Below the pieces are notes generated by a model. That model saw only the letters and a program-made list of their open reading frames with translations, searched no databases and was not told where the DNA came from. DNA of 64,000 bases from Caldilineaceae bacterium (GTDB lineage: Bacteria > Chloroflexota > Anaerolineae > Caldilineales > Caldilineaceae): assembly GCA_022842065.1 (NCBI GenBank), contig JALHQH010000015.1:62001-126000 (forward strand). Reading direction: 5' to 3'. A program made the position numbers and the translations under genes. Positions 3,212 to 60,810 of this stretch are shown here, in pieces (position 1 is the first letter of the stretch; every line of letters starts with the position of its first letter).

Positions 3212-4066
3212 ATGTATCTTGGTTTTAGCACCTGGGCCATGCCCGATCTGGCCATCGACCCTGTCATCGCGCACCTGGCCCAGTTGGGCTTTGACGCGAT
3301 TGAGATCTGCGTATTGCCCCGCTTTTCCACCGCGCTGGCCCACCTGGACCAGGCCGAGCGCAACCGGATTGCTCAACTGCTGCGCGATCATAACCTGAAA
3401 CTCTCGTCCGTCTCTTCCTACATCGGCATGATGGATGGTGATGCGGCGCAATTTGCCGAAAATCGCGACTATCTCCAGCGCACCGTCGATCTGGCCGCCG
3501 AGTGGCGCGATCTCTGGATCCCTACGGGGCAACCGCCGGTAGTCGTCAGCGGCCTGGGCGGCACCCCGGGCGACATTGCCACGCGAGAAAGCCAACTGGT
3601 CGACCGCCTGAATGAAGTGGGCGAATACGCGGCGGCGCAAGGGGTCACCCTCGCCTTTGAACACCATGTCGGCAATGCCTACGAAACGCCGGATCAGACC
3701 GTGGCGTTGATGCAGCAAGTTTCCTCACCCGCGGTCAGAGTTAACTTTGACATTAGCCACTTCAATGTCATGGGCTTCTCGATTGAGGAATCGGTGGACA
3801 AACTTATCCCTTACGCCGCCCATACTCACGTCAAAGATGAACTGGGCCGCGCCCCCACGCACCAATATCTCATCCCCGGCGAAGGCGAATTTGACTATGC
3901 GCGCTACCTCAAGGCGATGCAGGCGCGTGGTTATCAGGGCGCCATCTCCACCGAGATCAGCATGATGGTGCAGCGCCGCCCTGCTTACGATGCCCTCGCC
4001 ACCGCCACCCGTTCTTATGAAGTACTCAGCCAGGCCTTTGCCGCCGCCGGGATCGCACGTGGTTGA
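3212..4066 (+). CDS. Sugar phosphate isomerase/epimerase family (TIM barrel)
   Basis: 284 residues, preceded by AAGGAA about 8 bases before the ATG. It belongs to the xylose-isomerase-like / AP-endonuclease-2 TIM-barrel family: metal and catalytic positions are seen in LAFEHH (Glu/His), NFDISHFN (Asp/His), HTHVKDELG (His) and GAISTEISM (Glu). Such enzymes isomerise or epimerise sugars, inositol derivatives or 3-keto sugars. The presence next to a sugar importer and a MocA dehydrogenase fits an oxidise-then-isomerise catabolic route. Exact substrate unknown. Confidence 0.88.
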   Translation: MYLGFSTWAMPDLAIDPVIAHLAQLGFDAIEICVLPRFSTALAHLDQAERNRIAQLLRDHNLKLSSVSSYIGMMDGDAAQFAENRDYLQRTVDLAAEWRDLWIPTGQPPVVVSGLGGTPGDIATRESQLVDRLNEVGEYAAAQGVTLAFEHHVGNAYETPDQTVALMQQVSSPAVRVNFDISHFNVMGFSIEESVDKLIPYAAHTHVKDELGRAPTHQYLIPGEGEFDYARYLKAMQARGYQGAISTEISMMVQRRPAYDALATATRSYEVLSQAFAAAGIARG

Positions 4067-4078
4067 TGTTTGATGCTC

Positions 4079-4140
4079 TTTTGCCATAGATAAACACAGA
4101 TGATTTATCCGTGTTCATCTGCGTTTATCTGCGGCAAAAA
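4079..4140. repeat. Dispersed palindromic repeat (GATAAACACAGAT type)
   Basis: An imperfect inverted repeat: the left arm begins TTTTGCCATAGATAAACACA and the right arm ends ATCTGCGGCAAAA. Short repeats of the form CGCAGATAAACACGGAT are common unexplained intergenic repeats in several phyla. It fills most of the gap before the hydrolase gene. Confidence 0.6.
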
Positions 4141-4180
4141 CTACAACTGCCCCAACCCATGCTCAAATTAGGAGTTACCA

Positions 4181-4987
4181 ATGCCCTTTGTGGCGGTACG
4201 CGATCTCAATCTCTACTACGAAATGGCCGGGACAGGCCCGCGGTTGCTCTACATTAACGGTACCGGTGGTGATCTGCGCCGCAAGCCGAATGTCTTTGAC
4301 TCGCCGCTCGTTGATCAGTTCACCATCCTGAGCTATGACCAGCGCGGCTTAGGGCAGACCGATCGGCCAACGACGCCCTACACGATGACCGATTACGCCG
4401 AAGATGCCAATGCCCTGCTCGACGCACTGGGCTGGGAGCGGTGCGCGGTGATGGGGGTCTCCTTTGGCGGGATGGTGGCCCAGGAGTTTGCCGTGTGCTA
4501 TCCTGAACGGATCGAACGGCTGATCCTCGCCTGTACGAGTAGCGGCGGGGCCGGTGGCGCATCTTATCCCTTGCACGAACTGCTTGATCTGCCGCTGCTG
4601 GAAAAGACAATGCACATGATGGCAATCGGTGACACGCGCCAGGATCGTGCTTGGCAAGCGGCGAATCCACCAATGGTCCAAGCCCTGGTTGACTTTGCGC
4701 TCGCCGCGGCCGCCGTGGGGGCCGATGAACCAGGCCGCGAGGTAGGGGCGCGCCTCCAGATTTTGGCGCGCAAAGATCATGACACCTATGCTCGGCTGCC
4801 GATGCTGAAAATGCCCGTCTTCATCTGTGGCGGGCGCTATGATGGCATTGCTTCGCCGACCAATCAACAAGCGTTACAACAGCAGATCCCCCATGCGCAG
4901 CTTGAATTGTTTGACGGTGGTCACGGCTTTCTCCCACAAGACCCTACTGCTTATCAGCGCATTATCGAATTTCTGTGTGCGAAATGA
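4181..4987 (+). CDS. Alpha/beta-fold hydrolase
   Basis: 268 residues with AGGAG (4169-4173) before the ATG. The catalytic triad can be read directly: nucleophile Ser94 in GVSFGGM, acid Asp221 in CGGRYDGIAS, and His248 in DGGHGF. The oxyanion segment NGTGGD lies near residue 26-31, and SYDQRGLGQTDRP is typical of the 3-oxoadipate enol-lactonase / epoxide-hydrolase-like branch. It probably hydrolyses a small ester or lactone; a sugar lactone would suit the neighbouring dehydrogenases, but that is a guess. Cytoplasmic, no signal peptide. Confidence 0.88.
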   Translation: MPFVAVRDLNLYYEMAGTGPRLLYINGTGGDLRRKPNVFDSPLVDQFTILSYDQRGLGQTDRPTTPYTMTDYAEDANALLDALGWERCAVMGVSFGGMVAQEFAVCYPERIERLILACTSSGGAGGASYPLHELLDLPLLEKTMHMMAIGDTRQDRAWQAANPPMVQALVDFALAAAAVGADEPGREVGARLQILARKDHDTYARLPMLKMPVFICGGRYDGIASPTNQQALQQQIPHAQLELFDGGHGFLPQDPTAYQRIIEFLCAK

Positions 4988-5082
4988 ACTACATAGGAGC
5001 ACGACGGTTGCAAACCGGGTGCTACTCAAACAAAGCCTGCCTCCGCGGGCTGTTTGTTCGTTTGTTTAGCTTGCCGCTCACC

Positions 5083-5130
5083 AATGCGTCACGCATCACG
5101 TTTTACGCATCACGCATCACGTTTCACGAA
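5083..5130. repeat. ACGCATCACG / TTTCACG repeat cluster
   Basis: Degenerate back-to-back copies of CGCATCACGTTTTACG and TTTCACG-like units. The same family is seen, in either orientation, at 13571-13622, 50430-50465 and 60375-60512, always between genes. Confidence 0.7.
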
Positions 5131-5149
5131 TCAAGAAGGAACCCTTATC

Positions 5150-6349
5150 ATGACTCTCTCTCTCGCCCTCATCGGCTGCGGCGGCATGGGCCGGCGCCAC
5201 ATTGGTGGTATGCGCCAATTGCACCGCATCGGCAAAATGCCCTTTGAACTGACCGCCGTCTGTGATCTCTATGAAAGCAGCGCCCAAGGTGCGGCTGATC
5301 TGGCTGCCGAAGCACTCGGCAAACGACCCGCAGTCTGCACCGATCTCAGCCAGTTGAGCGATGTCGATGCCGTGATCCTGACAACATCACCCGAAACGCA
5401 CGCGGCGCTGGGCATTGGCGCGATGGAACTGGGCATGCATGTCATGACCGAAAAGCCGATGACTCTTACCGTTGCCCAGGGCCGCGCGCTGATCGCCGCT
5501 GCACAACGCACCAACCGCAAGCTCGCCGTCGCCGAAAATTATCGCTGGGATCCGATCAACCGCCTCGCCAAGGCCCTCATTGACAGCGGCGCCATTGGCA
5601 ACCCCTATCTCTCGATCCAGTCGAGCTCTGGTGGCGGCGAAACCGTGGCAATTACCCCGTGGCGTCACCTGCGCGCCAAGGGGGGTATCATCGTCGACAT
5701 GGGCATCCACTATGCCGATCTACAGGAATTTTACTTGGGGCCAATTGCCCAAGTCGTCGGCATGAACGCGCTGATCGACCGCGAACGCGTCGACGCGCAG
5801 GGCCAAAAGCACCCCTCCGACTCGGAAGATCTCATGGCCGGGGTAGCACGTTTTGAACGGGGCGCGCTCCTGCACTATCTGATGGACCGCGCTGGCCGTG
5901 GTGAAGGTCACTTTGTGCGCACGATCCACGGCACCGGCGGCAGCCTCGCCATCCCCCATGATCGTACCGGCAAGCCACTCCACCTGGTGCAGCGCCACAA
6001 TCTCAAGGATGAAGTGATTCCCGAAAGTGAATTGCTGGCCCTCGTCCCTGATTTTGCCGTGAACGAGCTGACCGCCGCGCTCTTTGGTGGCGAACGGCAG
6101 AGTTCTTACCAGATGGCCTTTACCGACATCGACACCAGTTTGCTGGGGATCGAACAGGTTGACTTTATCGAAGCGATTGTGAAGGACCGCGAGCCGGAAG
6201 TGACCGGTGAGATCGGCCTGCGCGCCTTAGCGCTGATCATGGGTTTCCTGGAGACAGAGTTGTTGGGGCGGATTGCGACGATGGCGGAGTTAACCACTTC
6301 GGAGACGTTGCCTTATGAAGCGTTGGTGAATCAGGCTATCGGTGCCTGA
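5150..6349 (+). CDS. Gfo/Idh/MocA family oxidoreductase
   Basis: 399 residues from the ATG at 5150, which has AAGGA (5136-5140) ahead of it; a longer frame from 5054 translates the intergenic repeat cluster and is rejected. N-terminal Rossmann motif GCGGMG at residues 9-14 binds NAD(P), and the family EKP motif (catalytic Lys102) is at 101-103. Family members oxidise or reduce sugars, inositols or their derivatives. The C-terminal half has the expected alpha/beta substrate domain with GGIIVDMGIHYADLQEF. It probably works with the sugar isomerase-like and hydroxyacid dehydrogenase genes beside it. Confidence 0.92.
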   Translation: MTLSLALIGCGGMGRRHIGGMRQLHRIGKMPFELTAVCDLYESSAQGAADLAAEALGKRPAVCTDLSQLSDVDAVILTTSPETHAALGIGAMELGMHVMTEKPMTLTVAQGRALIAAAQRTNRKLAVAENYRWDPINRLAKALIDSGAIGNPYLSIQSSSGGGETVAITPWRHLRAKGGIIVDMGIHYADLQEFYLGPIAQVVGMNALIDRERVDAQGQKHPSDSEDLMAGVARFERGALLHYLMDRAGRGEGHFVRTIHGTGGSLAIPHDRTGKPLHLVQRHNLKDEVIPESELLALVPDFAVNELTAALFGGERQSSYQMAFTDIDTSLLGIEQVDFIEAIVKDREPEVTGEIGLRALALIMGFLETELLGRIATMAELTTSETLPYEALVNQAIGA

Positions 6350-48862: not shown

Positions 48863-50416
48863 TCAATAAATATTGTGCTCTAGGGGGATCGCCAGCTCCC
48901 CGCTCGACAGCGGGGAGCTGGCGATCCCCCTAGAGCGCTTGAACATGCTATAACTTGTTTGTGCCACTGAGGGACGGCTGGGTTTGGCTTGGGTGGGGGC
49001 GGCTTTGGTCGCATGGCACTGGTGCAGCCGTAGCAAGATGGTGGTGCCCTGCCCTACCTGTGAGATCACCTCTAGCGAGCCGGGTAAGGTGCTGATGCGC
49101 GCTAGCATGCCGCGCAGGCCAAGCCCTGCTTGTTGAGATGGGATGATTTGTGCCGGGTCGAAGCCCTGGCCATCATCCTGGATGCTGATTTGTGCTTCAT
49201 TGCCAACGACCGCACAGTGGACCGTCACCCGTTGGGCACCGGCATGTTTGTAGACATTGTTTAACGCCTCTTGAATAATACGATAGATCTGCTCGCCGGC
49301 TTCGATCGGCAAGGGCAAGGCGGTAAAAGCCGGCGAAGCCACCAATTCCGTCTGGATGAGATATGCCTCTTGATACTGTTGCAGGTAGAGGCGCAAGCGT
49401 TCTACCAAACCTTGCTCACTACTCTCCCCCGTTTGTAACTGTAAAATAAAGTCACGCAGCTCGACATGGGCATTTTTCGCCACCTTGACCAGCCGCAGCA
49501 ACAGATCGTCGGTCGCGTCGGCTTTGCCTTTGGCCAGTAACATGCGCGCCGCCTGGGTTTGGGCATTGACATAGCCCAGTACCTGGCCGAGACTGTCATG
49601 TAATTCGCGCGCCAGCCGTTCCCGCTCTTGGAGCACGACCAGCGTCTGTTGCTGTTGGCGGAGCGCGGCGGCCGCTGTCTGCTGCGCTGCATGTTGCAGG
49701 CGAATGATTCCATCGGCGCGCGTGACAATCAAGAAGAGTGCCCCATAAAGGCAGGCTAAGATCAGCCCCACCCCGAGCATCAGTTGCCATTGGGTGCTGT
49801 TAATGTGCTGCAAGAGCGGGGTTACATTGCTATAGAGTTCAAACACTGCCGCAATCTCACCCTGCGGGCCGGCAGGACGGACGGCCATGTAAGTAGAAAG
49901 CACATTTTGTTTTTCGATCACCCCCTCAAACGCGCTGAACTTGTCCCGATAGGTCAGCTCGCTGGCAATCTCACCACGCAGCGCCTGCTGAAAGCCACTA
50001 TTGGCCGCACCATTTTCTCCAATTTGGCTGAGTTCGGTGGAAAAGATTGTGTTGCCTTGGAGATCATAGAGCTTAATTTTGATCACGGCCAGACCCGCCA
50101 TTTGGGCCACCACATCACCTCGCAAATGCCAGAGTCGATCGACATTGGTCGGGGCGGTCTGTAGCGGCACGCCCGGCAGTGTAACGAGAGGTGGTAGGGG
50201 AGGGACGACCGGCGCTGGTGTAGTGGCGGCAAAGAGGGGGACAAATTCCGGCCAGAGCGTATTGGCAAAGAGCTGGGTAAGGGCTAGATTTTTGCTCTCT
50301 TCCAACTGGATAAAGGTACGCACCGCCACCGTGCGGTAGAGCATGCCCAACAGGATGGTCACAATCACAAAGGCAAAGAGGCTAGCGATCGAGAAGTAGC
50401 GGCGCAAACGAAACAT
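48863..50416 (-). CDS. Sensor histidine kinase, NarL type, with extracytoplasmic sensor
   Basis: 517 residues. N-terminal helix (IASLFAFVIVTILLGMLYRTV), an external sensor region of about 190 residues (HLRGDVVAQMAGLAVIKIKLYDLQGNTIFST...), a second helix (LMLGVGLILACLYGALFLIV), the HisKA_3 segment RERLARELHDSLGQVLGYVNAQT with the phospho-His, and a HATPase domain with IQEALNNVYKHA and ISIQDDGQGFDP. The partner regulator gene is upstream on the same strand. The last ~24 residues (SSPLSSGELAIPLEHNIY end) are encoded by a 28-bp-arm palindrome, so the tail has been replaced by a repeat. Confidence 0.9.
   Translation of the reverse strand: MFRLRRYFSIASLFAFVIVTILLGMLYRTVAVRTFIQLEESKNLALTQLFANTLWPEFVPLFAATTPAPVVPPLPPLVTLPGVPLQTAPTNVDRLWHLRGDVVAQMAGLAVIKIKLYDLQGNTIFSTELSQIGENGAANSGFQQALRGEIASELTYRDKFSAFEGVIEKQNVLSTYMAVRPAGPQGEIAAVFELYSNVTPLLQHINSTQWQLMLGVGLILACLYGALFLIVTRADGIIRLQHAAQQTAAAALRQQQQTLVVLQERERLARELHDSLGQVLGYVNAQTQAARMLLAKGKADATDDLLLRLVKVAKNAHVELRDFILQLQTGESSEQGLVERLRLYLQQYQEAYLIQTELVASPAFTALPLPIEAGEQIYRIIQEALNNVYKHAGAQRVTVHCAVVGNEAQISIQDDGQGFDPAQIIPSQQAGLGLRGMLARISTLPGSLEVISQVGQGTTILLRLHQCHATKAAPTQAKPSRPSVAQTSYSMFKRSRGIASSPLSSGELAIPLEHNIY
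48877..48936. repeat. 28-bp-arm perfect palindrome in the histidine kinase 3' end
   Basis: Arms 48877-48904 and 48909-48936 are perfectly complementary with a 4-nt loop. It lies in frame within codons 494-514 of the 517-codon gene. Confidence 0.85.
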
Positions 50417-50429
50417 GGGTACTCCTTTG

Positions 50430-50465
50430 TGAAACGTAAAAGGTAATGCGTAAAACGTGATTCGT
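50430..50465. repeat. ACGTAAAACGTGATTCGTG repeat cluster
   Basis: Short run of the same degenerate units as 13571-13622, located between the kinase and response-regulator genes. Confidence 0.6.
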
Positions 50466-50516
50466 GAAATTACCCGACACGCCGCACATTGGGCGGGCTT
50501 CAGTCATTGCTGTTGC

Positions 50517-51188
50517 TCAGGAGAGGGCTAATGCTTCGTCGGTAATCAGACCGGTGCGGACAGCATAGGCTACCGCTTGGGTGCGGTTGCGCAGATGAAG
50601 CTTTTGCAGAATCTCTTGTAGGTGATACTTCACCGTGCGCTCGGTGATAAAGAGCTGATCCGCCACTTCTTTGTTGGTCTGCCCCTGGGCGATCAGCCGA
50701 AGCACCTCCAATTGGCGCTCGGTCAGCTCGTCAACGCCGGCGGCGTCCTTGGCTGCCACTTTGGCCGGTTGGGCGCGGTGGGCAAATTCGCGCAGAATTT
50801 TGGTGGCCAGATCCCGCGGCATAGGCGCTTCGCCGCGTTCTAACCCAGTGAGCAATTCAAAAAAATGTTCCACCTCTAGCTGTTTGAGCAGATAGCCGGT
50901 CGCGCCCGACTTAATCGCTTCAAAGAGATGGGCATCATCGGCAGACATGGTCAACATGACAATTTGCACTTGGGGCATCAATGTTTTGATCTGACGCGTA
51001 GCCTCCAGCCCATCGCAGCCAGGCATGTGGATATCCATCAAGATGACATCCGGCTGCAGGCGTTGAGCCATGGTTACGGCTTCAAAGCCATCATGCGCAA
51101 CGCCAACGACCGGCATGTCATTGGCGCGTAGTAGATTTTGTAGCCCCTCTAGAAAAAGGGCATGGTCATCGACAAGTAAAATCTTCAT
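50517..51188 (-). CDS. LuxR/NarL-family response regulator
   Basis: 223 residues from the ATG at 51188 with GGGGAG ahead. Receiver domain with phospho-acceptor Asp52 (VILMDIHMPG), then a LuxR-type helix-turn-helix: LTERQLEVLRLIAQGQTNKEVADQLFITERTVKYHLQEILQKLHL. It lies directly before the NarL-type kinase gene and should be its partner. The pair sits among genes for DUF5666 proteins, which are candidate targets, but the sequence does not show this. Confidence 0.94.
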   Translation of the reverse strand: MKILLVDDHALFLEGLQNLLRANDMPVVGVAHDGFEAVTMAQRLQPDVILMDIHMPGCDGLEATRQIKTLMPQVQIVMLTMSADDAHLFEAIKSGATGYLLKQLEVEHFFELLTGLERGEAPMPRDLATKILREFAHRAQPAKVAAKDAAGVDELTERQLEVLRLIAQGQTNKEVADQLFITERTVKYHLQEILQKLHLRNRTQAVAYAVRTGLITDEALALS

Positions 51189-51352
51189 GGTGCTCCCCTG
51201 ATCTCCTTCAGCCACCCTGCTGCGGTGACTGCTCCTGTAAATCGACGAAAAATGTGGTTGCTTTTTCTGCTGTCTTTACCTGCCGCTGACCACTCCTGTT
51301 CGGATTAAGTGGCTATGCTGTGTGCTGTGTAGGGGCAGTTCACGGCACAAAT

Positions 51353-51393: not shown

Positions 51394-53364
51394 TTAGCGA
51401 CTCAACAGCGGCAGGAAGAGTTGGCTATCCAGCGTCATGCTACGAATCTGGGTGGCAACTTGCGTGCCGTCGGCGGCGCTATAGCTATTGACGAGTGCCG
51501 TCTGACCGGTGGCCAACGCTCCTTGTAAATCGTTGAGGTCGGTAGCCGGCGTAACAGTGTAGCTGACGCCATCAATGACCCAGGTTGTCGCCTGTTGACC
51601 GGCGGCCTGCAAGGCACCACCATTTCCGCCGTTGTCATCAATCCGGCCAAAGCGGTTGTTGTCACCAGCACCCGGGGGCACAGCCACTTCAATTTCGTGT
51701 AGGATGTTGACCCCTTCGCGCAGGAAGTATTCCATCTTCACATAGGCACCCAGCCCCAAGAGACCGTCATTTTCGTTGAACTTGGTCGTGCCGGTTGCCA
51801 CGAACGTCGTGCCGCCCACCGTCCATTGCCCGACAAAACCACTGGGGGGCATCTGCTCGACATAACCAAAGAGCGTGGCATGGCTCTGATCATCGGCCCC
51901 GTTATCTTCGCTGCTGAGCTTGATCTGGCGGGCGATACGTGCTTGGGCGGCATTGGTGTAGTATTTGACCCGTACCTGCTGCCCCACCACAAAGTTGCCA
52001 CCAGTCGGGACCAGCGTCGTCGTGCTGCTCACCGTATAGCTAATGCCGCTAATGTTCCAGATCCCAATCAGATCGGCCGGTAGACGCTCGATGAGGCCAA
52101 AGGCATGGCCTTCGCGACCGGCATGGTCGTCACCACCGCCCTGCTGTCCACTAAACTTGGTTTCAATCTCACGGGCATAGAAGGTGCCGTCGGCCTGCAC
52201 ACTAAAATGGACCTTCACGGTGACGCCAACCCCGAAGCTGCCATTACGTTGTTTGAATTCGGTCGCGTTATCGGCAACAATCGTAATACCGCCGATGTTC
52301 CAGTCGCCAATTAACGCGGCGGGGAAGCTCTGCAGGAGGCCGTAGAGTTCGCCACGGGCGCTACCATCATCACCACCATCGCCGCCGTTGTCATCGCCAC
52401 AGCGGAAACCGCTGGTCGTCTCAATTTCACGGATGGTCGTCGGAGCATTCACTACCAGGTGAACCTTGACACAGGCACCCACACTAAAGTTGCCACGTTC
52501 TGTTTTGAACTCGGTGCTTGCCGTTGCCTGATAGGTCGTCCCGTTGATGACCCAGTCACCAATGAGAGCTGCGGGCATGCTTTCGATCCGGCCGTGAATT
52601 TCACGCGCATTGTCCGGTGTCGTGGTCGCATCGGGCGTAGTGGTCGCGGTTACGGTGCCGCTGGGGGTGGGGGCCGCGGCACAATCACGGCGGTCTTCCG
52701 TCTCAATGCGCAGGGCTTGGCGTGGTTCGGTGCCTGGTGCATAGCGCACTTCGACACACGCGCCAGGGACCAATGGGCCATCACTCTGGCGGAGACGGGT
52801 ACTTTCGCTCACCACATAGGTCACCCCACCAATTTGCCAGTTGCCGACAAAGCCAACGGTGGGCAGCGTATTTACAATGCCGCGCACTTTAATGCCATCA
52901 TCACCCGTCGCCGTGGCAGAAGGCGTGCGGCTGGGGGTAATAGAGGCATCAGGCGTGCTGGTGCTGCTGGGGGTACCGGTGCCGTCAGGCGTCTCGGTAA
53001 CGGTAGGCCCCCCGGCGCGACAATCATCAGCGCTCTTGGTGGCCAGCTTGGTTGCCTGGAAGGGGGCAGCTGTACCGACATATTCAACTTCCACACAACT
53101 GCCAAGGGCAAAGGCCCCTTTGTCGGTGTCAAATTCGGTACTCGTATCTGCCACAAAGCGGCGACCCGCCACTGTCCATTCGCCCATCAGGCCGGCGGTG
53201 GGCATGGCTTCAACCTGCCCCTTCCACTCTAATTCACCAAAGGCGCTGGCGCTTTGTGCGCTAAAGAGCAGAGCAATGCTTAACAACAACAGCGTCCCCA
53301 AGGCCATTAACGGGCGTAACCCGATCTGGGGGTTTTTAACATCTACCATAAGCTCACGTGACAT
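51394..53364 (-). CDS. Secreted DUF5666 tandem-repeat protein
   Basis: 656 residues. A signal peptide (core LMALGTLLLLSIALLFSAQSASA) ends near residue 42. The mature protein has six clear DUF5666-type units of about 60-70 residues, each with the pattern G-x-(V/I/L)-x-x-x-P...G-x-W-x-(V/I)-x-G...T-x-(F/L)...V-x-V-x-Y (for example QVEAMPTAGLMGEWTVAGRRF and RIESMPAALIGDWVINGTTY), plus a degenerate seventh. Two Pro/Thr/Ser linkers join the first three. The C-terminus ends SQLFLPLLSR, like the S8 protease (RFYLPLVSR) encoded next to it. Function unknown; a cell-surface structural or binding role is likely. Confidence 0.85.
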   Translation of the reverse strand: MSRELMVDVKNPQIGLRPLMALGTLLLLSIALLFSAQSASAFGELEWKGQVEAMPTAGLMGEWTVAGRRFVADTSTEFDTDKGAFALGSCVEVEYVGTAAPFQATKLATKSADDCRAGGPTVTETPDGTGTPSSTSTPDASITPSRTPSATATGDDGIKVRGIVNTLPTVGFVGNWQIGGVTYVVSESTRLRQSDGPLVPGACVEVRYAPGTEPRQALRIETEDRRDCAAAPTPSGTVTATTTPDATTTPDNAREIHGRIESMPAALIGDWVINGTTYQATASTEFKTERGNFSVGACVKVHLVVNAPTTIREIETTSGFRCGDDNGGDGGDDGSARGELYGLLQSFPAALIGDWNIGGITIVADNATEFKQRNGSFGVGVTVKVHFSVQADGTFYAREIETKFSGQQGGGDDHAGREGHAFGLIERLPADLIGIWNISGISYTVSSTTTLVPTGGNFVVGQQVRVKYYTNAAQARIARQIKLSSEDNGADDQSHATLFGYVEQMPPSGFVGQWTVGGTTFVATGTTKFNENDGLLGLGAYVKMEYFLREGVNILHEIEVAVPPGAGDNNRFGRIDDNGGNGGALQAAGQQATTWVIDGVSYTVTPATDLNDLQGALATGQTALVNSYSAADGTQVATQIRSMTLDSQLFLPLLSR

Positions 53365-53688: not shown

Positions 53689-53867
53689 TTTAATACCCTG
53701 TAAATTAAGTAACTGACAATTTTGAGGGGCAAAGTCTTCCTGGAAGGGGTCACGCCAACGCTGCGCAGCGTTGGCGTGACCCCTTCCAGGAAGATCGTGT
53801 TCCCGACCAGCCCAGAAAAATCTGCAAAGGCTTAATTTACAGAGTACTTAATTTACAGGGTATTAAA
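53689..53867. mobile_element. MITE-like element with a 58-bp perfect palindrome core
   Basis: 23-bp perfect terminal inverted repeats (53689-53711 and 53845-53867) starting TTTAATACCCTGTAAATT bound 179 bp. TGAG flanks both ends (53685-53688 and 53868-53871), a possible 4-bp target duplication. The core 53736-53793 is a loop-free palindrome with 29-bp arms, including GGAAGGGGTCACGCC. Confidence 0.8.
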
Positions 53868-53964: not shown

Positions 53965-55818
53965 TTAGCGGCTGACTAGAGGTAGATAGAAGCGCTGCAA
54001 CGGCGTGGGTAAAGTGCTGGTCGGTGTGGCGATGGGGGTTGATGTTGGTGATGGTGGTGGTGGTGTCCCTGGCGGCACCGTGGGGGTGGGTGTCGCGCCG
54101 GCACTTTGGATGCTCGCCGCCACATCCAACAGCCCGCCCAACTGGTCGGGGTAGGTGGGATTCTGGCTGTCAAGATTGATGGCATGGGCGGCAAAGTTGG
54201 CTTCAATGGCCGCCACCGAAGCCAGCGGCAACTGTTTGCGCACCAAGGCGGCTGCGCCACTGACAAAACCAGTGGCCATCGATGTGCCGCTCCAACTGGC
54301 ATAACCACTGCCCTGGGCGCTGATCATCGTAGAGGTGATGCCGACCCCAGGTGCCGCAATGTCAATCCAATCAACGCCGTAGTTGGCAAAATCTGCCTTG
54401 ATCCCGGCACTGTCAACGGCGGTAACACTGATCACGTGGGGATAGCTGGCGGGATATTGGGGCAGGCTGCTGTTGAGATTGCCGGCCGCGGCCACCACAA
54501 TCACGCCCTGCGCAATCACCCTGGCAATCGTGTCGCGCAACACTCGCGAATCATTTTCGGCACCGAGGCTCAAGTTGATCACATCCGCCCCTTGTTGCAC
54601 TGCCCATTCAATCGCATAGGCCAGGGTAAAGGTGTTGCCGCGACCATTCGAATCGAGCACACGCACCGGCAACAGTTGGCTCTGGGGACTGACCTTGGCA
54701 ATGATGCCGCTAATGTGGGTACCGTGACCCCAGCCCAGCCCATCGCCTTCATCCTGTGGTTCGCTGTCATCCGCCACCATGTCGTAGCCGGCCAGCAAGC
54801 GCCCGGTAAAAGCACTATGGGCTAGATCGATACCCGTGTCAAGAACTGCCACGATCATGCCTGCCCCTTGTTCCTGCGCTAACGCGGCGTCCAGATTAAT
54901 CTGTGCAAAGGCCGACTGGTTGGTATAGCCGCTGGGATCTTCGCCACCCCACCGCCAGGTTTTGTATCCATGCCCCTGGGGAATCCCACCGACAAAATTC
55001 AACTCGGCCCAAATCACATCCGGATCGGCGCGCAGGCGCGGCGCGGCTTGCTCTTCGTCGTCATCAGCGGTGCCAAAGAGATAAATATTGGCGGAAGCCA
55101 GCAGGGTCGCCTGTGGCGTTAAACCATAGCGGCTGGCCACCGTGGTCGAAAGTACCCCAGTTTGCAGCCGCACCACGACTTCATTCAATTCATGGTCATC
55201 AACGCGCACACGGTTCGCTTGAAAACGGCTTTCACCCTGCCATTGCCCACGCGCTTCCAGCCAACTTCCCACTGGTGGCACACCATCATCGAGCCGGGTG
55301 GCACTGTTGACGATCAGCGTGATCGTCAGTTGACGCGCGGTTTGAATCAGCCACTCACCAGAGCCGCCGGCGGGGGCGCTCAACAAGATCCCTTTGACCT
55401 CCGCTTCACGCCCATCGTCCTCTTCGCGCTCGATTCGTTCGGCGCGCAGCCAATTTGTGGCTGCCCACTCCCCTTTGGCCTTGATTAATTGACCGCTGGC
55501 TGGTAGGGCAGGGTCAAACCGGGTTTCGCTGTCCGCACTCACGCGGTAAATACGACCACTTTGGCTACGCACCTGCCAATCGCCAATCCCGGCGGGATGG
55601 TTGGGGGCATTGAGCACAACGCCCTTAATCTCGCCATCGCTATCGCTCTCGGTTCCCGGTTCGGTGGCCAGGACACCCAACCAAAACACAAGGCAGGCGA
55701 TGAGTGCCACGGCCAGCGCACTGGTGAAGGGCAGGAAGCGCCGGCCAGTGCAAGGCCACGTGTTACTTGGCTGCCCGGCTGGTGTAGGCATAGTTGGTCG
55801 TCGATGTACAGGCACCAT
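53965..55818 (-). CDS. Secreted subtilisin-like (S8) protease with DUF5666-like domains
   Basis: 617 residues. N-terminal helix at 30-51 (signal or anchor), then two DUF5666-like units (about 62-130 and 138-206), a propeptide-like segment, and the catalytic domain. The catalytic triad is Asp327 (AVLDTGID), His365 (GWGHGTH) and Ser513 (SGTSMATG). A Pro/Thr linker leads to the C-terminal tail RFYLPLVSR. It should cleave proteins outside the cell. It starts 3 bases after the stop of the CHAT gene, so it is in the same operon. Confidence 0.93.
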   Translation of the reverse strand: MVPVHRRPTMPTPAGQPSNTWPCTGRRFLPFTSALAVALIACLVFWLGVLATEPGTESDSDGEIKGVVLNAPNHPAGIGDWQVRSQSGRIYRVSADSETRFDPALPASGQLIKAKGEWAATNWLRAERIEREEDDGREAEVKGILLSAPAGGSGEWLIQTARQLTITLIVNSATRLDDGVPPVGSWLEARGQWQGESRFQANRVRVDDHELNEVVVRLQTGVLSTTVASRYGLTPQATLLASANIYLFGTADDDEEQAAPRLRADPDVIWAELNFVGGIPQGHGYKTWRWGGEDPSGYTNQSAFAQINLDAALAQEQGAGMIVAVLDTGIDLAHSAFTGRLLAGYDMVADDSEPQDEGDGLGWGHGTHISGIIAKVSPQSQLLPVRVLDSNGRGNTFTLAYAIEWAVQQGADVINLSLGAENDSRVLRDTIARVIAQGVIVVAAAGNLNSSLPQYPASYPHVISVTAVDSAGIKADFANYGVDWIDIAAPGVGITSTMISAQGSGYASWSGTSMATGFVSGAAALVRKQLPLASVAAIEANFAAHAINLDSQNPTYPDQLGGLLDVAASIQSAGATPTPTVPPGTPPPPSPTSTPIATPTSTLPTPLQRFYLPLVSR

Positions 55819-55821
55819 GGT

Positions 55822-58800
55822 TCAATCTCCAATCACAAAAAAGGCTGCCCAGTAATAGGGGTGTAGTCCAGCCGTATCCGCCGCACGTTGGGCTGCGCGC
55901 AGTGCGGCGGCTGGACGACTGCTTGTCGCCAGGGCCGCGCTGTGGACCTCGTTCCTATCGTTACTGAGCAGAAAGGTATAAAAGTGATCCATCAGATCGG
56001 CGGCACTGGCGTCGTGGACATTCCAGAGGGTAGCGATCAATTCGGCGACACCGGCCCCCAAAAAGCCGCGCGCCAGCCCGACCACTTCATCGCCCCCGCG
56101 GACCCGGCCCACGCCACTTTCACACGCGCTTAACACGACCAAACGCGCCGCTACGGGCAGACGATAGAGCTCGCGCACATCGATCCAGCCGTCAGCCAGC
56201 TTGAGGGCCGAAAAGAACGGGTTATCAGGACGAAAAAGGCCATGGGTTGCAAGGTGTAAAATGTCGGCTTGTGCTGCCTGGGCCAAGCCGGCCCGCCCGG
56301 CCTGATCACCCAGAAAGAGCTGTGCCCCATCAAAATGCTGGGCCGCGCGCTCAACTTCGCGGCGGGCCGCGGGAATGGCCGGATCATCGACGGCCAGGCC
56401 TGCCCATGCGCGCCAGGGTGACTTTGGCCGGTTGGACGCAGACGTTGTGTCGGCATAGACTTCGCCTGCCCGGCGGCGTAAGGCCGCGACACTGGCGCTC
56501 GGGGCATAGGTACACTCAAAGTGGTGAAGCAAATAGGCCTCGCCATCCCACAGCGCATGAAAGGGCAGCCGGTGCAGCGCACCAACCGGGACGATTAGCA
56601 GGCGGGTGGCCTGTAACTGGTCGCGCATGGGCGCAATGACCAACTGGTAAAGGGTGGCGAGTGCTTCGCGTAGCCGTGCTTGTAGACGGGCACCGTGACG
56701 TGTCAGATAATCACCGCCCACCTCGGCGCGCCCAAGCTGAAAATGCAACTCGGCCATTGCCTGTTGGACAGCAGCCACCGTTGCGAGCCGACGATAGACC
56801 CTGATCGTTGCCCAGTCAACGAGAAAGGCCGCCACTGTGTCACCGTCGATCAGGTAGAGGATCGCCTGTTGGTCGGTCGCCAGGGTCTGCTGAAAGACGG
56901 TAAGATCGACCGCTGCGGCCTGCTGGAATAAGCCGGACTGGCGCCATTCCAGCCGTTGCAAGCTGGCTTCATGGGCCAGCAACTCCTGGCTGAGCTGTGG
57001 ATCAAGCCGGCGGCTGCCACTTTCACCCAGCAGTTGGTTATAGAGCCAATGTAAGCGCTGGCGTAAGCGGGCAACTTCGGTCGCAACTTCAGGCGCATCT
57101 GGGCCGGTGGGAAGGGCCAACTGTGCGCTTTCACCCTCAGGGGCTGTGCTGTCAGGGGCTGGACGCGCGGGCTGGGTGCTGTCAGGCAATTCACTTGCCG
57201 TGGCGGCCAAGAGTCGTTCCAGCAGAGTGCGTGAGCGCGCCCGTTCAACGACGGCAAAGGCCGCTGCCAATAGCTGATCGGACTGGCTAGCTTTGCTGTC
57301 CGCGGCGTCAGCCTCGGCGATCACCCCTGCTTGGTCCGCGCCCGCAGGTTGACTGGCCAGGTCGAGCAGCAGTTGCACCAGATCTTCATAGATCTGGTTT
57401 TTGTCATCCAAAAAGGCGGTGCGCACCTCTTCAATGCTGAGGGTCGCGCGTGTCGCTTCGAGGAGGGTGATGGCGATTTCAAAATGGGCACGGGCCGCGC
57501 TGCGCTCACCTTCGGCTTGGGCCAGACGCCCCAGCATGTGGTGTAGGCGCAGCGCGTAATGGGGCAACGGGCTGGCGCTGATCGCTGGTGCTAGCGTGCT
57601 GCCAATCAGTGTGGCGATGCTGGCGGCCCAGTGGTGGGCCGCCACAAAATCGCCCTGGGTAATGGCCAGCTGCATGCGCAAAATCTGTGCTTCAACCAAA
57701 CCACCGAGATCCCAAATCAGCGCTGTCCCGTTTTCCCCCTCGCCGGGCACCTGGGCGAGTAAAGAGTCAAGCAACTGGATGGCGAGTGCTGGCTCCCCTT
57801 GTCGCTGGGCCAGGGTGGCCTGGGCTAACGTGGTCCGCTGTTGCCAAAAGCGATTTTCCAGCTGCGTAAAAAGGAGCTGTGCCGCCTGTAGCTGCTGCGT
57901 GGCCTGGCTTAATTCCCCGTTGCGCAGGGCAAGTAGACCCGCGGTATAGTGGGTCTGGCCCAGTTCATAGGGTTGATCAGCGCTGCGAAAGAGGGCTTCA
58001 CTGCGGGTGAGCGCCTGTTGTGCCTCCGGCAGCAGATTCATCACCAGGTAGGCCATTGCCTGTTCCAGCAGCAATTCATCGGCCTGGCGTAACTGTTCCA
58101 GATCGGGCGTCGCGTTGGCCGCTGTTGGTGGGACAAGATTAACCCAAGCCGCGTCAAAAGCAGCGAGCGCTTCACTGTAACGCCCGCTGCGCAGGTAAAG
58201 GCGACCACGGTTGGTCTGTGCCCGGCCCTGATTCGTCTGGTCATTGCTTTGGGCAAAGCCCGCTTCGGCTGCCAGTAACGCCGCTTCGGCTGCGTCCGGC
58301 TGATCGAGAAAGGTGAGCGCCGTGGCCCGATTAAGATCATTGTGCGCCAGCTCCGCGGTGAGGGTTGCCAACTGCGCCGCAATCGGCGGCGGGCTAGTCA
58401 GTGCCTGCAAAAGTTGCCGACTTTGCGCAAAGGCGGCCAACGCCAGGCTATGCCGCTCGGTATAGGCCAACAGCGTCCCCAGGTTATGATAGGCACTTGC
58501 CTGTTGGATGCTCTGCTCAAACGCCGCCGGCGGTTGCTGCTGCCAGGCTGCAATCGCGGTGCGTGCGGCGGTTTCGGCGGCGGCATAGTGACCTTGCATG
58601 GCCAATACCTGGGTGAGACCAAGCAGGGCGCGTGTCGCACCGGTCGTTTCACCCGCTGCTTGCCAAGCGCTTTGGGCCTGCGTGAGGAGCTTTTCGGCTT
58701 CGGCCAGCGCGCCGGCAAAGAGTTGCAAGCGGGCATGCGCATAGGCCAGTTGCGCCTGGGTGGCCGGTGCCAGAGGGGCCGTGGTGGCCAGTTGCGTTGC

Positions 58801-58992
58801 CAGGGCATCCGCCACGGCCAGCCACTGCCCGGCGCGTTGTGGATCAATCTCTGATTCGTATAGTGATGATGTGGCGAGGCTGACCAGGCTAGCCTCAGTG
58901 GCGTGCCCTTGGCGCTGTAATGTGCGCAATGCCTCGTCAACGGTCAAATCGGCGAACGCAGCTAGCCAAGGGCTGGGGGAAGGGGTCGTCAT
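55822..58992 (-). CDS. TPR-CHAT protein (caspase-like protease)
   Basis: 1056 residues. The N-terminal ~500 residues are TPR-like helical repeats (AYHNLGTLLAYTERHSLALAAFAQ, GRYSEALAAFDAAW, ELGQTHYTAGLLALRNGELSQATQQLQAA). The C-terminal ~360 residues are a CHAT domain with the caspase-like dyad His917 (HLATHGLF) and Cys957 (LSACESG), followed by GDEVVGLARGFLGAGVAELIATLW. CHAT proteins cleave specific targets when activated through their helical part. Its start overlaps the anti-sigma stop by 4 bases. No membrane segment, so it acts in the cytoplasm. Target unknown; regulators in the same operon are obvious candidates. Confidence 0.9.
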   Translation of the reverse strand: MTTPSPSPWLAAFADLTVDEALRTLQRQGHATEASLVSLATSSLYESEIDPQRAGQWLAVADALATQLATTAPLAPATQAQLAYAHARLQLFAGALAEAEKLLTQAQSAWQAAGETTGATRALLGLTQVLAMQGHYAAAETAARTAIAAWQQQPPAAFEQSIQQASAYHNLGTLLAYTERHSLALAAFAQSRQLLQALTSPPPIAAQLATLTAELAHNDLNRATALTFLDQPDAAEAALLAAEAGFAQSNDQTNQGRAQTNRGRLYLRSGRYSEALAAFDAAWVNLVPPTAANATPDLEQLRQADELLLEQAMAYLVMNLLPEAQQALTRSEALFRSADQPYELGQTHYTAGLLALRNGELSQATQQLQAAQLLFTQLENRFWQQRTTLAQATLAQRQGEPALAIQLLDSLLAQVPGEGENGTALIWDLGGLVEAQILRMQLAITQGDFVAAHHWAASIATLIGSTLAPAISASPLPHYALRLHHMLGRLAQAEGERSAARAHFEIAITLLEATRATLSIEEVRTAFLDDKNQIYEDLVQLLLDLASQPAGADQAGVIAEADAADSKASQSDQLLAAAFAVVERARSRTLLERLLAATASELPDSTQPARPAPDSTAPEGESAQLALPTGPDAPEVATEVARLRQRLHWLYNQLLGESGSRRLDPQLSQELLAHEASLQRLEWRQSGLFQQAAAVDLTVFQQTLATDQQAILYLIDGDTVAAFLVDWATIRVYRRLATVAAVQQAMAELHFQLGRAEVGGDYLTRHGARLQARLREALATLYQLVIAPMRDQLQATRLLIVPVGALHRLPFHALWDGEAYLLHHFECTYAPSASVAALRRRAGEVYADTTSASNRPKSPWRAWAGLAVDDPAIPAARREVERAAQHFDGAQLFLGDQAGRAGLAQAAQADILHLATHGLFRPDNPFFSALKLADGWIDVRELYRLPVAARLVVLSACESGVGRVRGGDEVVGLARGFLGAGVAELIATLWNVHDASAADLMDHFYTFLLSNDRNEVHSAALATSSRPAAALRAAQRAADTAGLHPYYWAAFFVIGD

Positions 58993-59597
58993 GCCAACTC
59001 CAATGCTTCGAGCAAAAGCGCGGCACCCGTCGGGGGCAATAGATAAAGGGCGTACGCGCCGGCCGGCAGGCCAGTGAGGCGAAAGCGGCCTTGGCCATCA
59101 CTTTCACCTGTCTGGATGAGCGTGCCCGCTGGCTGTTGCAATTCGAGCCACATGGGCAGCAGGGGCGCGTCTGTCTGGAGCGGCAGCACTTCGCCTTCCA
59201 GTGTAAAGGTGCCATCGTGCTGTTCAACCAGCAGTTCGACCTCGGCCTGTGGCGTGGCATAGAGCAGCCGATAACCGGCCGGACCAGCGGTACGCAGACC
59301 CTGCGCTTGGCTCTGCTCACGCCCATTCCAGAGGACCGATGCGCGGATCGTCTCGATGAGACTGGCCAGGCGTGAGGGCTGTGCCGGGATTTGGGTAAAG
59401 AGTTGGGTGTAGCGGCTCAATGCGGCCTCACTTGGCCTACTCTGGCGGGCCAGGGCCAGATTCGTCGCCAGCGCCGTCAGTTCTGCCAACTGCGCGCGAC
59501 AGGTTCCACAGCCGGCCAGATGGGCCGTTGCTGCCCCGTCCGGCTGATCGCTATCAAAGGCAAAGGCATAGAGTTGGTCTTGATCTAAATGGGTCAT
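58989..59597 (-). CDS. Zinc-finger anti-sigma-like protein with a carboxypeptidase-regulatory-like domain
   Basis: 202 residues. Near the N-terminus, His26-x3-Cys30-x2-Cys33 (HLAGCGTC) is the zinc-binding anti-sigma (ZAS) motif. No clear membrane helix follows, so it seems soluble. The C-terminal part (GTLIQTGESDGQGRFRLTGLPAGAYALYLLPP) is a beta-sandwich like carboxypeptidase-regulatory domains. It is encoded 120 bases after the ECF sigma gene and overlaps the CHAT gene, so it should bind that sigma factor. A soluble anti-sigma could be controlled by CHAT-mediated cleavage, which is an inference. Confidence 0.82.
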   Translation of the reverse strand: MTHLDQDQLYAFAFDSDQPDGAATAHLAGCGTCRAQLAELTALATNLALARQSRPSEAALSRYTQLFTQIPAQPSRLASLIETIRASVLWNGREQSQAQGLRTAGPAGYRLLYATPQAEVELLVEQHDGTFTLEGEVLPLQTDAPLLPMWLELQQPAGTLIQTGESDGQGRFRLTGLPAGAYALYLLPPTGAALLLEALELA

Positions 59598-59717
59598 GGG
59601 TTTTGCATTCCAATGGTCGAAAATTCGATTTTCAGGCTAACTGGCGGTTACTGCACTGGGGTGCCAATCACTTCTGTCCCAAAGGTGCGCTTTGGCTACG
59701 TCAAAAATACATGAGTT

Positions 59718-60359
59718 TTATTCATGATGAATGAGTTCCTGCGCGTGAAAACCAAGCCCCTCCAGCAAGGTGCGCAACTGTTGCAGGCAGCGGTTGCGCG
59801 TGGGGCCAATGCTACCCTTGGGGATCTCCAGTTGACTGCTGATCTCATCATAGGAGGGCTCGGCTGGGTCAAGAAAGATCAAGGTGAGCAGGAGTCGACA
59901 CCGTTCTCCTAGCCGCGCCAGCCCGGCGGCCAACGCTTCCTGCTGGCCCCAGCCTTGGAGTAACTCGGTCATGGTGGGCAGGGGGCGGCTTAAGGGCTGC
60001 ATCACGGCTGGGGTTGTGGTCAAGCCCGCTTCCCCGCTGGGGTTACCTTCGCTGGTGGCCAGGTCGCCGGCGGCCAGGGTTTCCTCGCGTTTGCGCCGTT
60101 GCAGGGCACGCCAGCTATAGCGCCGGGCCGTCGTCATCAGCCAGGCCGGCAGGCTCTGCGGATCTACCAATTGGGGCAAGCCCTGGGCGAGCGCCAGAAA
60201 AACCTCCTGGCCGACATCATCAACCTCGGCCGCAGTGAGCCCGTACCGGACCGGGATCGAATGGACCAGCCGGGCATAGTGGTGGACAAGTTGCTGCCAG
60301 GCCCGGCTATCACCGCGGCGGCAGCGGGCAATTAAGTCATGATGGTCAATGGCACTCAC
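59718..60359 (-). CDS. ECF-type sigma factor of the CHAT operon
   Basis: 213 residues from a GTG at 60359 (AAAAGG precedes; frames extending to 60467 translate the repeat cluster). Region 2: LIARCRRGDSRAWQQLVHHYARLVHSIPVRYGLTAAEVDDVGQEVFLALAQ and LMTTARRYSWRALQRRKRE; region 4: LGERCRLLLTLIFLDPAEPSYDEISSQLEIPKGSIGPTRNRCLQQLR. First gene of the operon ECF sigma - anti-sigma - TPR-CHAT - S8 protease. It probably switches on its own operon. Confidence 0.92.
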   Translation of the reverse strand: MSAIDHHDLIARCRRGDSRAWQQLVHHYARLVHSIPVRYGLTAAEVDDVGQEVFLALAQGLPQLVDPQSLPAWLMTTARRYSWRALQRRKREETLAAGDLATSEGNPSGEAGLTTTPAVMQPLSRPLPTMTELLQGWGQQEALAAGLARLGERCRLLLTLIFLDPAEPSYDEISSQLEIPKGSIGPTRNRCLQQLRTLLEGLGFHAQELIHHE

Positions 60360-60456: not shown

Positions 60457-60512
60457 TCACGTTTCACGTTTCACGTTTCACGTTTCACGTTTCACGTTTC
60501 ACGTTTCACGTT
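60457..60512. repeat. TCACGTT x8 heptamer array
   Basis: Eight uninterrupted copies of TCACGTT (56 bases), about 100 bases upstream of the ECF sigma start. It is long enough for slippage and lies in the promoter region of the CHAT operon. Confidence 0.85.
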
Positions 60513-60758: not shown

Positions 60759-60810
60759 CTGTGTGTAGCCGGTTCGTGACCGGCGCCGGTCACGAACCGG
60801 CTACACACAG
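60759..60810. repeat. 52-bp perfect palindrome
   Basis: Loop-free palindrome, arms of 26 bp centred on GGCGCC at 60784/60785. It is between the CHAT operon and the divergent membrane-protein genes. The remaining part of this 561-base gap (60360-60920) holds the repeat clusters and the promoters of both sides; no gene seen. Confidence 0.85.

Follow-up and report, generated by a model that had tools for sequence, protein, structure and literature searches.

Switching of an extracytoplasmic function (ECF) sigma factor by a caspase-like protease has a precedent in Craspase, in which Csx29, a tetratricopeptide repeat (TPR)-CHAT protease, cuts Csx30, an inhibitor of an ECF sigma factor (PMC10028731). 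Sigma factors of group ECF54 have CHAT, subtilase and carboxypeptidase proteins in their gene context and are proposed, in section 3.3 of that paper, to be under proteolytic control without an anti-sigma factor (PMC8999054). Class I anti-sigma factors have three helices, with a zinc motif over helices 2 and 3, and a fourth helix that binds region 2 of the sigma factor (PMC7406223). The locus analysed here lies on a 64,000-nucleotide stretch (the window) of a Caldilineaceae bacterium (Chloroflexota; contig JALHQH010000015.1) and encodes an ECF sigma factor, a soluble anti-sigma protein, a TPR-CHAT protease and a predicted exported S8 protease. Like ECF54, it has an ECF sigma factor near CHAT, subtilase and carboxypeptidase-domain proteins (the likeness being one of gene context); it differs in that ECF54 is described without an anti-sigma factor, whereas the window encodes one, with a domain of class I whose zinc motif is intact.

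Our interpretation, to which we would give about even chances of being right, is that these genes form a cytoplasmic, protease-switched sigma module. At rest the soluble anti-sigma protein would hold the sigma factor by its N-terminal four-helix domain; a signal bound by the TPR part of the CHAT protein would switch on the caspase-like site, and CHAT would then dock on the beta-sandwich of the anti-sigma protein and cut the loop around Arg102. With the sigma-binding and beta domains parted by the cut, the remnant would let go or be degraded, and the output of the freed sigma factor would include the co-encoded S8 protease. Inhibition of sigma, the substrate of CHAT, the cut site, the signal and transcription of the operon by sigma are thus all steps that we infer, on the strength of the conserved linkage of the genes, the correlated distances of their products, the catalytic dyad, the Arg102 loop and the precedent of Csx29 and Csx30. 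To our knowledge, the CRISPR (clustered regularly interspaced short palindromic repeats)-driven Craspase is the only demonstrated case in which a caspase-like protease switches an ECF sigma factor in the cytoplasm.

The four genes and their conservation

All four open reading frames (ORFs) were confirmed on the minus strand, in the order sigma, anti-sigma, CHAT, S8 (Table 1), and with them the 4-base overlap of anti-sigma and CHAT and the 3-base gap between CHAT and S8 that the original prediction had read from the sequence; sigma and anti-sigma are 120 bases apart. That prediction staked itself on conservation of the set in relatives, and the set recurs in at least three phyla. A genome scan led by CHAT (an alignment of 36 sequences; 79 loci, from the best 80 of a longer list) gave many loci in which a same-strand sigma gene, an anti-sigma gene of one family and an S8 gene adjoin CHAT. 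The window's order was usual in Chloroflexota, in Rubrobacter and in one Armatimonadota locus (L010), and CHAT and anti-sigma were swapped in most Acidobacteriota loci. The same-strand set of four is common to Chloroflexota, Acidobacteriota and Actinomycetota, with 50 non-redundant loci (near-identical loci were removed for this set only, reducing 52 to 50), of which 34 have the window's order, 11 have CHAT and anti-sigma swapped and 5 are arranged otherwise. The four genes are not chance neighbours: conservation across phyla with changed gene order already refutes such an explanation, to which we attach practically no credence.

A second search, led by the anti-sigma protein, was meant to lessen the bias towards CHAT of the first (a narrow 11-row profile run over 6 genomes found few places, and a 43-row profile was used instead). 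At E ≤ 1e-15 the anti-sigma protein was found in 30 of 251 Chloroflexota and 11 of 149 Acidobacteriota genomes. At E ≤ 0.001 there were matches in 131 of 198 Actinomycetota genomes, most of those listed being confined to the anti-sigma domain, and strong full-length matches were present in 9 genomes of this phylum. The 69 regions then inspected (4.5 kb, same strand) comprise 35 of the 37 Chloroflexota and 18 of the 19 Acidobacteriota matches, the omitted ones belonging to the two seed genomes, together with 16 matches from Actinomycetota hand-picked for reaching the beta domain, the other partial ones being left out; sigma was present in 58, CHAT in 49, S8 in 29 and all four genes in 23. Counted from CHAT over all loci, anti-sigma lies within 3.5 kb in 86 of the 135 non-Csx29 rows, and these 86 have sigma in 82 cases and S8 in 57, against 5 and 3 for the remaining 49, a group that includes loci truncated by contig ends (it should be noted that two genome collections overlap, so that these counts and those given below for the dyad and for Arg102 may include some loci twice). 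Chloroflexota genomes with anti-sigma (seed genome excluded) had CHAT in 29 of 29 cases and those without it in 3 of 20, the two sets being unmatched for size. Over the 50 loci the distances of the four proteins correlate, most strongly for anti-sigma and CHAT (r 0.77, the remaining five pairs giving 0.58–0.66; 0 of 500 permutations for each pair), as calculated without a species-tree control. Two genomes stand apart by copy number: an acidobacterial one (G585; L177, L182–L186, L189) carries seven anti-sigma copies, six of them with sigma and CHAT alongside, and a 4.5-Mb Chloroflexota genome (G215) has 27 CHAT matches and no anti-sigma match at E ≤ 1e-15.

Table 1. Positions in the window of the four genes and of the domains and residues discussed.
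Feature	Position	Strand	Basis
ECF sigma factor, regions 2 and 4	59718..60359	-	213 aa; Sigma70_r2, TIGR02937; GTG start after AAAAGG
Soluble anti-sigma: class I anti-sigma domain and carboxypeptidase-regulatory-like beta-sandwich	58989..59597	-	202 aa; alignment, AlphaFold2 model, Pfam
Anti-sigma domain, residues 1–68	59394..59597	-	AlphaFold2 model; NCBIfam antisigma, under cut-off
Zinc motif H26-x3-C30-x2-C33 of anti-sigma	59499..59522	-	11-member alignment
Arg102 of anti-sigma, candidate cleavage point	59292..59294	-	Invariant column; loop 97–107 of AlphaFold2 model
Anti-sigma C-terminal beta-sandwich, residues 108–201	58995..59276	-	
TPR-CHAT protease	55822..58992	-	1056 aa; no signal or membrane segment
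Helical TPR part of CHAT protein, residues 33–601	57190..58896	-	TPR_12 1.4e-07; paired helices in model
Catalytic His917 of CHAT	56242..56244	-	Alignment
Catalytic Cys957 of CHAT	56122..56124	-	Alignment
Exported S8 (subtilisin-like) protease	53965..55818	-	Peptidase_S8 2.6e-43; hydrophobic segment 34–52; triad motifs

The anti-sigma protein and its candidate protease

The AlphaFold2 (AF2) model of the anti-sigma protein (43 rows; mean predicted local distance difference test score 88.6) has helices at residues 6–14, 21–29, 31–52 and 57–68, then a less certain linker and, from about residue 108, the strands of the beta domain. H26, C30 and C33 are invariant in the 11-member alignment, and in the predicted secondary structure the H-x3-C-x2-C motif lies over helices 2 and 3 of four, a layout shared with the class I zinc anti-sigma (ZAS) factors (PMC7406223), from which the protein differs in having a beta-sandwich and an invariant Arg loop, not a membrane anchor. 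The NCBIfam antisigma model matches residues 24–74 at 0.0028, under its cut-off, and the protein's own CarboxypepD_reg match (0.0015) is also under cut-off; across the 43 members (A3) Pfam at E ≤ 0.1 gave CarboxypepD_reg in 24 and zf-HC2 in 11. By structure search the beta domain is Ig/fn3-like, the listed matches to the model all being to this domain, with no anti-sigma fold among them. The absence of a membrane anchor claimed in the original prediction was borne out (top 19-residue hydropathy 1.33). Of 48 anti-sigma ORFs, read from stop to stop, 6 have a segment with hydropathy above 1.9, a possible membrane anchor, and 5 of these are among the weaker family matches.

The zinc residues are kept in 81–82 of 100 aligned anti-sigma rows beside CHAT, the motif being altered or lost in part of the relatives. 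As soluble zinc anti-sigma domains are often tied to redox sensing (PMC7406223), the operon might be a stress regulon in which the anti-sigma protein answers to zinc or redox state and CHAT cuts some other protein; we consider this very improbable, since zinc is not the shared input: several operon-bearing relatives (L002, L004, L006, L022) no longer have the motif. In some Chloroflexota relatives (L200, L205, L207; L031, L036, L037, L041, L047) two tandem H-x3-C-x2-C motifs precede the beta domain.

Between the two domains lies a loop (residues 97–107) that holds Arg102, the sole invariant column of the 43-member alignment. Arg102 is kept in 91 of 91 relatives beside CHAT, as found with a profile that itself contains this residue and was seeded by proteins beside CHAT. 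The AF2 model supports a soluble anti-sigma protein with an exposed loop.

The CHAT domain (PF12770) was matched at 1.8e-57 (195.5 bits versus a cut-off of 24), and the protein has no membrane segment (top hydropathy 1.48). Its nearest named full-length relatives are from Caldilineaceae and Caldilinea, and its nearest solved folds are Csx29 and separase; it differs from separase (C50) in being a bacterial TPR protein, and a specificity for Arg is putative. His917 and Cys957, described as intact in the original prediction, are indeed invariant in the alignment of 36 CHAT sequences (the window's included), and the dyad is present in 88 of the 88 module CHATs having both columns. In a tree of CHATs the node of 75 rows that includes the window has a Shimodaira–Hasegawa-like approximate likelihood ratio test (SH-aLRT) value of 98; the 99-row node of all module CHATs has a value of 1, which gives no support to their monophyly. 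The dyad bears on an alternative in which CHAT is a sensor subunit that does not cut, its TPR-CHAT body binding the beta domain and a change of shape pulling the anti-sigma protein off sigma. Pure binding would have no need of a dyad kept throughout the module; yet 45 of 47 CHATs that lack an anti-sigma neighbour have the same dyad, which is therefore no hallmark of the module, and we regard a purely binding CHAT as unlikely.

That last count also weighs against cleavage of the anti-sigma protein by CHAT, as do the missing size match and species-tree control noted above and several further observations. Arg102 is equally kept (21 of 21) in relatives without CHAT detected alongside, and the Arg is present in 120 of 120 listed streptomycete relatives that lack the first three helices; because it is as invariant in these proteins as beside CHAT, Arg102 may be structural instead of the cut site. 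The sites cut by Craspase orthologues, moreover, are not conserved: A|S, L|D and M|K (PMC11106740). Csx29, on a long branch of its own (2.98), falls outside the module CHATs, and against the Csx29 model some ordinary CHATs score 63.5 bits where the window's scores 66.2. S8 was not found nearby in 40 of the 69 regions, several of which are cut by contig ends, and the upstream regions of 81 sigma genes yielded no promoter pattern in common.

Relation to ECF54, Craspase and DdvS

In seven actinomycete loci (L149–L153, L155, L156) the anti-sigma homologue is shorter, its match beginning at model positions 50–59 (26 in L151), about the fourth helix, and in six of the seven the sigma gene adjoins it (the distance in L156 is about 4 kb). 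In three of these loci (L150, L152, L153) the genes for S8, sigma and the carboxypeptidase-regulatory protein share a strand and CHAT is on the opposite one, a further likeness to ECF54. A search with one short homologue gave 856 proteins; among the 120 listed, every named organism is a Streptomyces, UniRef gives three proteins the name ‘Carboxypeptidase regulator...’, and the zinc motif is absent from all. Comparison of a profile of 12 short relatives (A4) with that of the full family gave a probability of 99.1 (E 1.1e-18, 135 columns), the alignment spanning helix 4, the Arg loop and the beta domain. The 75-row clade that holds the window's CHAT also takes in five CHATs from short-homologue loci, and the sigma factors of such loci form a separate clade (6 rows, 99). 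The profile comparison, the shared Arg and the CHAT clade together place the short carboxypeptidase-like proteins and the window's anti-sigma protein in one family. The ‘carboxypeptidase’ protein of ECF54 loci is very probably a relative of the window's zinc anti-sigma protein; the matching context suggests that the short proteins are the ECF54 proteins themselves.

The short forms could also be taken to favour destruction of sigma itself by CHAT (or S8), with the anti-sigma-like protein as an adaptor. Proteolysis of the sigma factor without an anti-sigma factor is what has been proposed for ECF54 (PMC8999054), and the first three anti-sigma helices are absent from the streptomycete relatives. 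The model of the window protein, however, includes all four helices, and most rows beside CHAT retain the zinc residues; S8 is in addition unlikely to act on a cytoplasmic sigma factor because most S8 ORFs have an N-terminal hydrophobic segment (see below). We therefore judge loss of sigma by proteolysis decidedly improbable. Returning to cleavage of the anti-sigma protein, a wider proposal, which we make tentatively and with less than even confidence, is that a CRISPR-free pathway from caspase to sigma operates in at least three phyla, in which a cytoplasmic TPR-CHAT protease would start transcription by cutting a soluble anti-sigma protein beside the invariant Arg, and that the ECF54 ‘carboxypeptidase’ protein would be the same switch minus the first three sigma-binding helices, with helix 4, the Arg loop and the beta domain kept. 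If this is true, Craspase would be one CRISPR-coupled case of a wider logic, and a stand-alone, widely conserved operon would offer a compact system for finding what TPR-CHAT proteases sense and cut. It would also amount to a concrete revision of ECF54, testable in Streptomyces, in which the unexplained ‘carboxypeptidase’ protein becomes an anti-sigma relative.

The window differs from Craspase in that its CHAT scores 66.2 bits against a Csx29 cut-off of 300 and in that no ORF of the size of Cas7-11 is present, the largest listed being 1070 aa (in L216 the ORF judged from its size and place to be Cas7-11 has 1614 aa). The anti-sigma profile, run on 10 Csx29-family regions, matched one ORF only, and that weakly: in L219 (891–2722) a sigma gene and an ORF with a weak match to the anti-sigma family (4e-6) lie near a Csx29-family gene (3886–6198) on the other strand. 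Direct descent between the module and Csx29, in either direction, was considered and is unsupported, Csx29 forming its own clade and some non-module CHATs scoring nearly like the window's. The system is not categorically new, the gene context having been reported for ECF54 and the cleavage logic for Craspase. The original prediction could not name the arrangement; it resembles the reported ECF54 context and its cleavage logic is that of Csx29, Csx30 and CASP-sigma, and of the original interpretation the conserved set and, by the AF2 model, the soluble anti-sigma protein with its exposed loop have stood, cleavage by CHAT and control of the operon by sigma being still hypotheses. What is new is a CRISPR-free module of separate genes with a class I anti-sigma domain and, as judged from sequence comparison, the homology that joins it to ECF54-like loci, with streptomycete forms lacking the first three helices. 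In a literature search that left most subscription journals uncovered, a CHAT domain and an anti-sigma factor were named together only in the Csx29 paper, and no paper was found on sets of CHAT, zinc finger and sigma in Chloroflexi or of any three among CHAT, sigma, carboxypeptidase regulatory-like protein and S8; given this coverage, such absence is weak evidence.

DdvS and DdvA of Myxococcus xanthus are a further pair of ECF sigma factor and anti-sigma factor, and the chain of the latter matches the TPR-CHAT body (8rw5, 8rot); by its entry title DdvA is a single transmembrane protein, whereas the window's anti-sigma protein and CHAT are separate and soluble, beside an exported protease. DdvS, its sigma partner, controls a defence island (PMC12288465) and TPR-CHAT proteases act in Craspase (PMC10028731), so the operon might instead be a defence or cell-death system in which phage infection would set off CHAT as a killing protease and sigma would increase the supply of CHAT. 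The window's S8 is matched by two PADLOC models (subtilase 1.8e-23; IetS 2e-07), but none matched its CHAT, anti-sigma or sigma. The anti-sigma protein had 0 matches in 72,556 plasmid records and CHAT 0 in 50,697 phage records, the reverse pairings not having been searched. The operon's annotated neighbours encode a DUF5666 protein and a two-component system, and the seven anti-sigma loci of one acidobacterial genome are more like a regulator family. A role in defence therefore has little support from the PADLOC, plasmid and phage searches, and we think it quite unlikely.

The S8 protease, the upstream region and neighbouring genes

The original prediction that the second protease is for export is consistent with the one hydrophobic segment of the window's S8 protein (residues ~34–52, hydropathy 2.55). 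Such a signal-like segment was seen, by eye, at the N-terminus of about 38 of 41 S8 ORFs (the exceptions being two pieces in L064, and L041). DUF5666 is matched twice in the N-terminal part of the window's protein, the triad motifs of the S8 domain are at D327, H365 and S513, which we take to be the catalytic residues, and a Pro/Thr-rich tail ends in RFYLPLVSR. The output gene can be exchanged: an amidohydrolase gene directly follows CHAT, in place of S8, in three (L164, L165, L195) of the seven S8-less CHAT loci scanned for their next gene; in the remaining four, the genes that follow CHAT are mutually unrelated.

The sigma factor matches Sigma70_r2 at 4.7e-10 and as a whole lies over the TIGR02937 cut-off (6.6e-16), and its match to region 4 (0.0071) is under the Pfam cut-off. 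Its likely start is the GTG at 60359, 9 nt after AAAAGG; a longer mechanical start at 60467 falls in a tandem repeat, TCACGTT in eight perfect copies (60457–60512), just upstream. On the strand of the sigma gene this repeat contains TGAAAC, which resembles an ECF −35 element, though this may be chance. The original prediction had looked to a promoter motif of the sigma factor; in the upstream regions of the 81 sigma genes, searched for word pairs with 15–19 base spacers, nothing rose above shuffled sequences (the best pair occurred in 9 sequences, against 7, 8 and 9 in three shuffles), and a sigma-70 scan gave nothing near the window's sigma start. Further upstream is a perfect 52-nt palindrome (60759–60810).

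The next gene after S8 (51394–53364) has seven DUF5666 matches and the C-terminus FLPLLSR, and the S8 protein of L001 ends in KVYMPVIVR; endings of the FLPLLSR and YLPLVSR type may be a tail for surface sorting in Chloroflexota. Still on this strand, and downstream (48863–51215), are a LuxR-type response regulator and a HisKA_3 histidine kinase. Between S8 and the next gene lies an element like a miniature inverted-repeat transposable element (53689–53867), with perfect 23-nt terminal inverted repeats and an inner perfect palindrome of 60 nt (53735–53794).

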